Source: Anaerosoma tenue
GTDB taxonomy: Bacteria > Actinomycetota > Coriobacteriia > Anaerosomatales > Anaerosomataceae
Reading direction: 5' to 3'
NCBI RefSeq assembly: GCF_023161965.1
Contig: NZ_JALNTY010000003.1
Span: forward strand, 167,271-231,270
DNA length: 64,000 nt
Numbering within the stretch: position 1 is the stretch's first letter; each line of letters opens with the position of its first letter. A program made the position numbers and the translations under genes. Positions 35,229-37,970 of this stretch are shown piece after piece. The notes under the pieces were generated by a model. It made no database searches, was not told the DNA's origin, and worked only from the letters and a program-made list of their open reading frames with translations.

Positions 35229-35990
35229 ATGGCTGGATTCGAAGGCAAGGTCGCGTTCATCACCGGCGCAGGTTCTGGTATCGGCCGTGAGGCCGCGCTC
35301 GGTTTCGCGCGCCAGGGCGCAAAGGTCGTCGTCTCGGACGTCGATGAGGCCGCAGGGGCCGACACCGTCTCGGCGATCGAGACGGCGGGCGGCACCGCGA
35401 TGTTCGTACGCGCCAACGTCGCCGAGGCAGCCGAGGTGGAGGCGGCGATCGCCGCAGCCGTCGAGGCGTATGGCGGACTCCATATCGTGGTCAACAACGC
35501 CGGTATCGGCGGCGAAGCCGGACCCACGGGCGAGTACTCGCTCGAGGGATGGCACAAGGTCATCGACATCAACCTGAACGGCGTCTTCTACGGCATGCGG
35601 TACGGCATCCCGGCGATCCTCGCCTCCGGTGGCGGCTCGATCGTCAACGTCTCGAGCATCCTCGGACTCGTGGGCTGGGCAACGGCTCCCGCATACGTCG
35701 CAGCCAAGCACGGCGTCTCGGGCCTCACCAAGGCGGCGGCTACCGAGTATGCGCAGCAGGGACTGCGGGTCAACTCGGTCCACCCCGGGTTCATCGAGAC
35801 GCCGCTCCTTACCAAGGCCGGGATCACCCCGGGCTCGGACGGATATGCGTTCATCGCCGGCAAGCATGCGATGAACCGGCTGGGCACCGCGGATGAGGTC
35901 GCGAACCTCATCGTCTGGCTCGCATCCGACGAAGCTTCGTTCGTCACCGGCTCCAACGTGGCCGTGGATGGAGGCTACACCTGCCAGTAG
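35229..35990 (+). CDS. Short-chain dehydrogenase/reductase (SDR)
   Basis: 253 residues, classical SDR. The cofactor motif TGAGSGIG (about 14-21), the NNAG stabilising motif, the catalytic Ser in VNVSSILG and YVAAK (Tyr-Lys) are all present, followed by VHPGFIETPLL and the C-terminal GSNVAVDGGYTCQ. An Asp after strand 2 (VVVSDVDE) suggests NAD rather than NADP. The substrate is unknown. The gene is monocistronic, between its own operator-controlled promoter and a terminator. Confidence 0.92.
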   Translation: MAGFEGKVAFITGAGSGIGREAALGFARQGAKVVVSDVDEAAGADTVSAIETAGGTAMFVRANVAEAAEVEAAIAAAVEAYGGLHIVVNNAGIGGEAGPTGEYSLEGWHKVIDINLNGVFYGMRYGIPAILASGGGSIVNVSSILGLVGWATAPAYVAAKHGVSGLTKAAATEYAQQGLRVNSVHPGFIETPLLTKAGITPGSDGYAFIAGKHAMNRLGTADEVANLIVWLASDEASFVTGSNVAVDGGYTCQ

Positions 35991-36034
35991 ACGGCATGTA
36001 GCCCGCGCGCTCCACACCGGTGTTCGCGCATACC

Positions 36035-36076
36035 AAGGCCCGCCGACGACCACTCAGGGTCCGTTCGGCGGGCCTT
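36035..36076 (+). terminator. Terminator of the SDR gene
   Basis: AAGGCCCGCCGA and TCGGCGGGCCTT form a perfect 12-base stem around an 18-base loop; TCTC follows. Confidence 0.7.
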
Positions 36077-36085
36077 CTCACGATA

Positions 36086-36102
36086 TTGGCACGCACATTG
36101 CT
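36086..36102 (+). promoter_or_regulatory. Exact sigma-54 (-24/-12) promoter consensus
   Basis: TTGGCACG-CACA-TTGCT matches the sigma-54 consensus TGGCACG-N4-TTGCW at every fixed base, with the diagnostic GG-N10-GC spacing. The expected start is near 36,113. An rpoN gene is not in this window. Confidence 0.6.
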
Positions 36103-36112
36103 TGCATACTCG

Positions 36113-36209
36113 CGAGCAGTGCGACCCGCAATCCCTCCCCCCTCGGACGCGGGGAATCGCCGCTCACATGAAACGAGGCGCGTCCCCCCACGCGCCTCGT
36201 TCCTTTTTT
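36113..36209 (+). ncRNA. Candidate small RNA, about 97 nt
   Basis: The predicted transcript starts 11 bases after a sigma-54-like promoter and ends in a strong intrinsic terminator. It contains a CCCC-TCGGACGC-GGGG hairpin (36,139-36,154) preceded by CCCTCC, a stretch complementary to Shine-Dalgarno sequences, as in many regulatory RNAs. No RBS-supported coding frame is present. Expression and function are inference. Confidence 0.5.
36172..36209 (+). terminator. Intrinsic terminator of the candidate small RNA
   Basis: AACGAGGCGCGT-CCCCCC-ACGCGCCTCGTT, a perfect 12-base stem, is followed by CC and TTTTTT. It may also stop leftward transcription from pstB. Confidence 0.9.
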
Positions 36210-36225
36210 CCCGGCGATACTCGCG

Positions 36226-37107
36226 CTACCCGAACCGCCCTGTGATGTACGACTCCGTTCGCGAGTCATCCGGATTGGTGAACATCTTCTTCGTGTCGCC
36301 CATCTCCACGAGGTGTGCGGGCTCCTCCAGACTCTCGCGCAGCATGAACGCCGTCTGGTTGGATATGCGGGCCGCCTGCTGCATGTTGTGGGTGACGATG
36401 ACGATCGTCACCGAGTCCTTCAGCTCGGCGATGGTGTCTTCGATCTGCTGCGTGGAGATAGGGTCGAGCGCGGAAGCGGGCTCGTCCATGAGGATCACCT
36501 CCGGCTTGGTCGCCAGCGCGCGTGCGATGCACAGCCGCTGCTGCTGGCCCCCCGAGAGCTCGAAGGCGTGCTTCTTGAGACTCTTCTTCACCTCGTCCCA
36601 CAGCGCAGCGCCCCTGAGCGACTCTTCCACGAGCGGATCGAGCTCGGACTTCCTGCGGATGCCCTGGGTGCGGGGACCATATGCGATGTTGTCGTAGATG
36701 CTCATCGGGAACGGGTTGGGTCTCTGGAAGACCTGGCCTACGCGCATGCGTAGCTCGACCGGGTCCATAGCCTTGCCCATGATGTCCGCGCCGTCGAGGG
36801 TGATGCGACCGTCCACGTGAACGTTGCCGATCTCGTCGTTCATGCGGTTGAGACAGCGCAGAAGCGTCGACTTGCCGCACCCCGACGGACCTATGAGCGC
36901 GGTCACCGAGCGCGCGGGGATCTCCATGCCGACCCCCTCGATGACGCGGTCACGACCGTACGCCACCGAGACGCCCGAGAGCGAGAACGTCCCACGGACG
37001 GCCGCCGACGCATCCTCGCGTGTCGCAACGTCCACCGCATCGTCCGCTACGACGGATCCGGCGGTGTACGCCAGCGTCCCGTCCCGTTCGAGCAGCAGTG
37101 CGTTCAC
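36226..37107 (-). CDS. pstB: Phosphate ABC transporter ATP-binding protein
   Basis: 293 residues. An N-terminal extension of about 40 residues precedes the usual PstB body. Walker [12 protein letters not shown]-loop [22 protein letters not shown], signature [16 protein letters not shown], Walker [14 protein letters not shown] and the switch IVTHN are intact. The C-terminal [22 protein letters not shown] is diagnostic of PstB. The GTG start overlaps the pstA stop (GTGA) with AGGAGGG eight bases upstream. Last gene of pstSCAB. No phoU is seen here. Confidence 0.94.
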
Positions 37108-37970
37108 CACTTGACCCTCCTTCTCTGAGCCGAGCGCCACAGCGCCGCGACGACGCTCACAACGCTCACGCCGGCCACCAGCACGAGCGCGGTACCCCAC
37201 ACGAGCGTGGGACTCCACCCCGGCACCGACGTGACCTGCGCATATATGTGATAGGGCAACGACATGAACTGCGATGACAGCCCATCCGGCAGCTTCCTCA
37301 TCTGGAACACCGCACCGGTGAACAGGATCGGCGCGGTCTCACCGGCCGCTCTTGCCAGGCCGAGGATGGAACCGGTGATGATACCCGGCGCCGCCGCCGG
37401 CAACACGACCTTGTAGATCGTGCGCAGCCGCGTGGCGCCGAGCGCGAGCGAGGCCTGCCGAAGGTCCTGCGGGATCTGTCTCAGCGCTTCCTCGGTCGCT
37501 GTGATCACGACCGGCAACGTCATGCACGTCAAGGTGAGCGCGGAGGCGATGACCGAACGGCCGAACCCCGCGAGAAGCACGAAGGCGGCGAGGCCGAACA
37601 GCCCGTAGACGATGGACGGGACGCCGGCCATGTTCGTGATCGCTAGACGTATCGCCCTGGTGGTGAAGTTGCGCGGCGCGTACTCGGACAGGTAGATCCC
37701 GGCGAGGATACCGATCGGGAGGGTGAGACCGGCGGTGGTCGCGACCACCCACAGGGTCCCGACGATCACCGGCAGGATCCCGCCCTCCCGGCCGCGGTCG
37801 CGCGGCACGTCGGTCAGGAACGTCCAGTCGATCGCGCCGATGCCGTGATACACGATGTATGCGAGGACGAACAGCGCGACCGCCACCACCGACACGGCGG
37901 CCAGACCCGTGACGGCCCTGGCCACCAACTCCGATCGGCGTGCCCTGCGCGTGCGAGACATGCCGCTCAT
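37104..37970 (-). CDS. pstA: Phosphate ABC transporter permease PstA
   Basis: 288 residues with six membrane helices. Typical PstA segments: [37 protein letters not shown], the EAA loop [59 protein letters not shown]. The start at 37970 overlaps the pstC stop (ATGA); the ATG three codons upstream is an alternative. It partners PstC in the membrane channel. Confidence 0.94.

Follow-up and report, generated by a model that had tools for sequence, protein, structure and literature searches.

A predicted sigma-54-driven small RNA, usually present in two copies, in genomes of the actinobacterial order Anaerosomatales

The window, which is the whole 64-kb stretch of Anaerosoma tenue DNA analysed here, carries in order glnA, gdhA, a gene for an SDR-family oxidoreductase, the pstB-pstA-pstC-pstS cluster, and genes for a two-component regulator and a kinase. 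Between the SDR gene and the convergent pstB, a sigma-54 promoter element is followed by a predicted small RNA gene, referred to as copy A (Table 1). The first-pass annotation had placed this element in an intergenic region behind the terminator of another gene, and the terminator-like hairpin of the SDR gene does lie upstream of it. The SDR gene is conserved only locally (11 loci).

Table 1. Features at and around copy A of the predicted RNA gene (positions in the window)
Feature	Position	Strand	Basis or remark
SDR-family oxidoreductase gene	35229..35990	+	adh_short/adh_short_C2; outside the system
Hairpin of the upstream SDR gene	36037..36074	+	Terminator-like, weak T tail; GGCCCGCCGA/TCGGCGGGCC read from the sequence
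Sigma-54 promoter (predicted)	36086..36102	+	-24 element TTGGCACG, 4-nt spacer CACA, -12 element TTGCT; exact consensus
Small RNA gene, copy A (predicted)	36113..36209	+	Homology; covariance-model match of 108.9 bits; compensatory changes in 18/23 pairs
Hairpin 1	36114..36165	+	Helices GAGC/GCUC, GCG/CGC and CCCGC/GCGGG around a C-rich loop; helices 1-3 of the covariation analysis
Loop-1 seed CCCUCCCCCC	36133..36142	+	Perfect complement of GGGGGGAGGG, Shine-Dalgarno region of A/V-ATPase subunit I; predicted pairing
Hairpin 2 / intrinsic terminator	36172..36209	+	12-bp stem, CCCCCC loop, then CCTTTTTT
pstB	36226..37113	-	ORF with ABC_tran; convergent neighbour, syntenic with copy A

The promoter element was examined by pattern and matrix scans. 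It was the single exact -24/-12 match in the window, and its matrix score was 28.3, compared with 9.5 for the runner-up, the matrix having been made from homologous promoters that include the element itself. The exact sigma-54 consensus reported in the earlier annotation was therefore borne out. In the whole genome, the pattern TGGCACGN4TTGCW had two exact matches, this element and one just after the gene of an NtrC-type activator. Transcription is predicted to start at about 36113-36115, 12 to 14 nt past the C of the -12 element and right where the conserved structure begins. Sigma-54 patterns with one mismatch were no more frequent genome-wide than in the reversed control, so the pattern does not reveal the remaining sigma-54 regulon.

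Several other sites of this kind were recorded. A third conserved -24/-12 site just past the NtrC-type activator gene (C1:44200) recurred in 18 of a further 20 rpoN loci; the gene behind it is small and in most loci encodes a protein with a membrane segment and a zinc ribbon. Ahead of the promoters of the RNA and of the zinc-ribbon gene, a simple dyad and k-mer search for an enhancer (UAS) motif or shared palindrome gave nothing convincing. Directly upstream of rpoN (C1:39860), in A. tenue and in several relatives, lies a weaker site, TGGTACG-N4-TTGCT (TGGTAYR type), where autoregulation is possible. Two further sites were recorded. CGGCACG-TTCG-TTGCT at C2:357444, with a matrix score of 16.3, precedes by about 50 nt a gene for a rhodanese-like secreted or membrane protein. 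CGGCACG-TAGT-TTGCA at C1:143932, scoring 12.2, precedes by about 75 nt the ATG of a gene whose product contains many CxxCH haem motifs.

Copy A is about 96 nt long, with a probable 3' end within the T-run. The letters had suggested a transcript-sized unit closed by a perfect hairpin and T6, and both of these closing elements were confirmed: hairpin 2 contains a perfect hairpin at 36172-36201, and TTTTTT follows at 36204-36209. The fold of the region 36105-36212 had a z score of -4.7, and no shuffled sequence was equally stable. DNA similar to positions 36030-36225 was found in 56 of the 61 genomes searched. A covariance model (R1), built from 22 copies, detected the RNA in 67 of 69 Anaerosomatales genomes, with two copies in 49 of them and one in 18. 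Outside the order, 331 genomes of Coriobacteriia yielded just three weak matches.

The structure was assessed in an alignment of 99 copies. In this alignment, 97.5% of the cells were paired and 180 cells carried double changes, values that are biased towards the structure to which the alignment was fitted, although the effect is large. Changes on both sides, and hence compensatory, occurred in 18 of 23 base pairs, including all 11 modelled pairs of helix 4 (hairpin 2). In the controls, none of 500 shuffles reached any of the measures, and slid alignments were 29 to 53% paired. The structure was specified by hand and through the covariance model; in the MAFFT alignment, copies of types A and B were one column out of register, and RNAalifold consequently missed the outer helices.

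The association of promoter and RNA was examined in two sets of copies. Among copies found by DNA similarity, 77 of the 79 examined carried the -24/-12 element, which was itself part of that query. The copies found by the RNA model provide the fair test of the promoter, because the model, unlike the similarity query, excludes it. In all 34 such copies of the order, the best -24/-12 site lay 23 to 26 nt before the start of the model, with scores of 9.8 to 28.9; the background, taken over 15,144 positions, peaked at 5.3. None of the three model matches outside the order had a -24/-12 site. Judged from this arrangement and the conserved fold, copy A is very likely a real stand-alone small-RNA gene that would be transcribed by sigma-54 RNA polymerase.

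In addition, the distribution of the RNA was examined beyond these genomes. A pattern scan of public contigs returned many unrelated exact matches, and the covariance model kept 9 of the 58 loci tested and rejected the others; the nine comprise those on records labelled Coriobacteriia or Actinobacteria and one each on records labelled Slackia and Aeromicrobium. The labels of named public records with the RNA include Coriobacteriia and Anaerosomatales. A plasmid collection gave no match. Nearly every genome of this deep-subsurface actinobacterial order carries one or, usually, two copies of an uncatalogued predicted regulatory RNA gene of about 96 nt. Two unusual loci were also seen. One genome of the set has several tandem hairpins, each with a CCCCC loop, close to its similarity match and with no recognisable -24/-12 site nearby (G040:C2:236900-239900), possibly an expanded version of the RNA. 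A locus in a member of the Coriobacteriia outside Anaerosomatales (G321:C17:11480-12570) has a weak model match and C-rich segments with no sigma-54 site, and may be a relative under another promoter.

The copies fall into two syntenic classes. In 31 loci, including copy A, the RNA lies next to the pst cluster, which is downstream of it; in 39 loci, it lies just upstream of tandem WYL-domain genes. The A. tenue genome has both classes, with copy B at C2:304124 behind the promoter TGGCATG-TCGC-TTGCT and in the same orientation as a WYL gene whose start lies a short distance past the terminator of this copy. The first-pass annotation had pointed to glnA, gdhA and pst as nutrient genes. The neighbours are as it stated, but the synteny with pst holds for one copy only. 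Because copy B sits by WYL regulators, a nitrogen or phosphate limitation signal cannot be deduced from the neighbours alone, and this reading was not adopted. The RNA pair is vertically inherited and typical of Anaerosomatales. Throughout the order, copy B immediately precedes two WYL-domain genes in tandem, and a link between the RNA and these proteins is conceivable. The WYL domain has an Sm-like fold, and RNA was discussed as its possible ligand in the PafBC paper (PMC6789036).

A search for rpoN and bEBP genes had been suggested as a check on the promoter, and both were found in A. tenue. The rpoN gene is complete, with the AID, CBD and DBD domains all above the Pfam cut-off. Behind it are encoded a membrane-bound PAS histidine kinase and an NtrC-type response regulator (REC-AAA-Fis), the kinase lying between rpoN and the regulator. 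The activator gene is 2.4 kb downstream of rpoN and gave the one strong bEBP match of the genome (240 bits), the other four being at or below 35 bits. Across the order, rpoN was present in 66 of 69 genomes, as against 32 of 331 other Coriobacteriia searched. For 63 of the 67 rpoN copies in the order, a bEBP gene lies 2.2 to 2.6 kb downstream on the same strand. All 51 high-quality genomes of the order have a bEBP; exactly one was found in 54 of the 66 bEBP-bearing genomes and a second in 12. The regulator next to rpoN is probably the activator used at the RNA promoters. Surveys describe Actinomycetota as effectively without functional RpoN (PMC12316311) and without the sigma-54 system (PMC3162934). 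The earlier remark that sigma-54 would be unusual here, most Actinobacteria lacking it, was upheld, but the peculiarity belongs to the whole order and not to one promoter.

Next, candidate targets of the C-rich loops were considered. The pattern GGGGGGAGGN3-12RTG had seven sites in A. tenue, compared with four in the reversed control, and 30 compared with 15 in seven genomes together. The matches include A/V-type ATPase subunit I, which came up in five of the seven; A. tenue has further matches at the Flp pilin and cpaB. These names were assigned from the sequences and not by family search. Upstream of the subunit I gene, a run of five or more G followed by AGG was present in 20 of 24 genomes of the same family, and G5 runs occurred in 8 of 134 and 3 of 142 control genes; the subunit I sites are orthologous and not independent, so that Fisher P values overstate the significance. 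The predicted duplex of loop CCCUCCCCCC with subunit I reached -27.4 kcal/mol in A. tenue, compared with -22.7 kcal/mol for the best of 134 controls. In the Flp pilin leader, GGGGGGAGG was present in about one-third of the loci read. The first-pass suggestion that a C-rich CCCTCC segment could target ribosome-binding sites gained a conserved candidate from these matches, by predicted pairing. Subunit I of the A/V-type ATPase appears to be the best-supported target, with the Flp pilin and cpaB as less well supported candidates. On balance, pairing with Shine-Dalgarno regions seems the favoured main mode of action of the RNA.

A different account of these sites is that the RNA is real and sigma-54 driven, while the G-runs at subunit I and flp reflect only strong ribosome binding and the true partner is something else, for example other mRNAs or a protein such as WYL. 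The G-runs at the ATPase site would pair with the ribosome as well, the position of copy B beside the WYL genes is kept across the order, and RNA is a possible ligand of the Sm-like WYL fold (PMC6789036). However, in genomes outside the family the Shine-Dalgarno sequence GGGGGGAGGG is replaced by GGGGGGUGU. In these other families of the order, the subunit I site reads GGGGG(GG)UG in 17 of 20 genomes; the canonical GGAGG is lost, and the G-run that fits the C6 loop is kept. Such G-runs are also rare in control genes. We consider this account unlikely, if worth keeping in mind, and prefer the pairing of the C-loops with Shine-Dalgarno regions.

The relation to the 6C family (RF01066) was examined with Rfam models. 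Neither the window nor six further loci contained a match to any Rfam family at its gathering threshold. The informative sub-threshold matches were ar14, with 24.3 bits against a cut-off of 58.8, and, for copy A, 6C, with 24.2 bits against 47. The RNA could nevertheless be a strongly diverged true 6C member that gained a sigma-54 promoter. It has the two-hairpin layout with about six C per loop that is a 6C trait, it occurs in the same phylum with the same order of elements, and loop 1 often contains CUCCUCCCCCC. The 6C model gives some copies of the order as much as 39 bits, and R1 in turn gives bona fide 6C loci of the phylum as much as 19.9 bits. On the other hand, not one of 61 genomes from the order and relatives reached the 47-bit cut-off, whereas the genuine 6C loci reach up to 89.5 bits with their own model. 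In hairpin 1, an additional conserved outer part (GAGC/GCUC and GCGACC) is absent from 6C, and a sigma-54 motif was seen upstream of none of the seven 6C loci checked. A common origin with 6C is therefore judged doubtful, and an independent family is preferred.

Much less probable is the reading that the copy by the WYL genes, and by extension copy A, is a leader or attenuator of the downstream gene and not a free RNA. The co-directional WYL gene starting shortly past copy B would suit a leader. In contrast, copy A and pstB converge, which leaves copy A with nothing downstream to regulate. A terminator closes both copies, and it is the loops that are conserved, not a gene-specific element. A chance promoter match combined with an ordinary bidirectional terminator would fit the interval between the SDR gene and the convergent pstB, but it is refuted, barring systematic error in the comparative data, by the joint conservation of promoter and RNA in every independently found copy of the order, by the covariation in the RNA, and by the presence of rpoN and activator throughout the order.

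The promoter, the structure, their conservation and the presence of rpoN and an activator are computational results; the firing of the promoter, the choice of activator, the signal and the targets are predictions. Altogether, it is quite probable that the 6C-like RNAs are driven by sigma-54 together with an NtrC-type regulator and act by blocking ribosome-binding sites, forming a Qrr-like circuit in Actinomycetota, as far as this can be read from genomes. In such a circuit, the PAS histidine kinase encoded behind rpoN would sense a signal and phosphorylate the NtrC-type regulator. The phosphorylated regulator would then most likely switch on both RNA copies through sigma-54 polymerase. The C-rich loops, CCCUCCCCCC in hairpin 1 and CCCCCC in the terminator loop, are predicted to pair with G-rich Shine-Dalgarno regions, and this masking would block translation; the direction of regulation and the targets are those suggested by the pairing. 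A more far-reaching and tentative possibility is that this RNA pair is largely the reason why the order has retained sigma-54, along with a dedicated kinase and NtrC-type regulator. The whole would then be an independently evolved Qrr-like circuit that tunes the A/V-type ATPase and surface pili post-transcriptionally. Cultured members of the group form pili (PMC9686372). The significance of the system lies in the retention of rpoN by one order of a phylum reported to be without it, where the most conserved visible output is the small-RNA pair. It would join sigma-54/NtrC control of small RNAs to C-loop blocking of ribosome-binding sites, neither of which is described for this lineage in the literature searched. 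It also gives a widespread subsurface group a concrete regulon that is open to testing, and the Rfam release searched has no entry for the RNA family.

Among known RNAs, 6C/B11 of Actinomycetota is alike in its length of about 100 nt and in its pair of C-loop hairpins, of which the second serves as terminator. The RNA described here differs in its score below the cut-off, its larger and differently built hairpin 1 with the conserved GCGACC, its sigma-54 promoter, its usual two copies, and its restriction to one order. Mycobacterium B11/6C represses through C-rich loops that pair with G-tracts of ribosome-binding sites (PMC10470900). By analogy, the RNA may work like 6C, and we do not file it as 6C. 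GlmY/GlmZ of Enterobacteriaceae is a sigma-54-dependent small RNA (cited in PMC3162934); this dependence is shared, whereas sequence, targets and phylum are unrelated. The alphaproteobacterial ar14 (RF02344), the best low-threshold Rfam match, resembles the RNA in its repeated C-rich loops but has three hairpins and a score far under the cut-off, and its alignment extends through the promoter. In Vibrio, the LuxO/Qrr system comprises multiple small-RNA genes, each with its own -24/-12 promoter, together with an NtrC-type response regulator. A. tenue likewise has more than one small-RNA gene, namely two copies, both with a -24/-12 site, and a regulator of this type. A sequence relation to Qrr is absent, with no Rfam match at threshold and no Qrr among the matches at E<=10, and the phylum is another one; in Anaerosomatales, the kinase-regulator pair is encoded with rpoN. 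Unlike that of Qrr, an Hfq dependence of the actinobacterial RNA is unlikely, an actinobacterial Hfq not having been identified (PMC6789036). With these differences, the Vibrio LuxO/Qrr circuit may be regarded as the nearest functional analogue of the predicted Anaerosomatales system.
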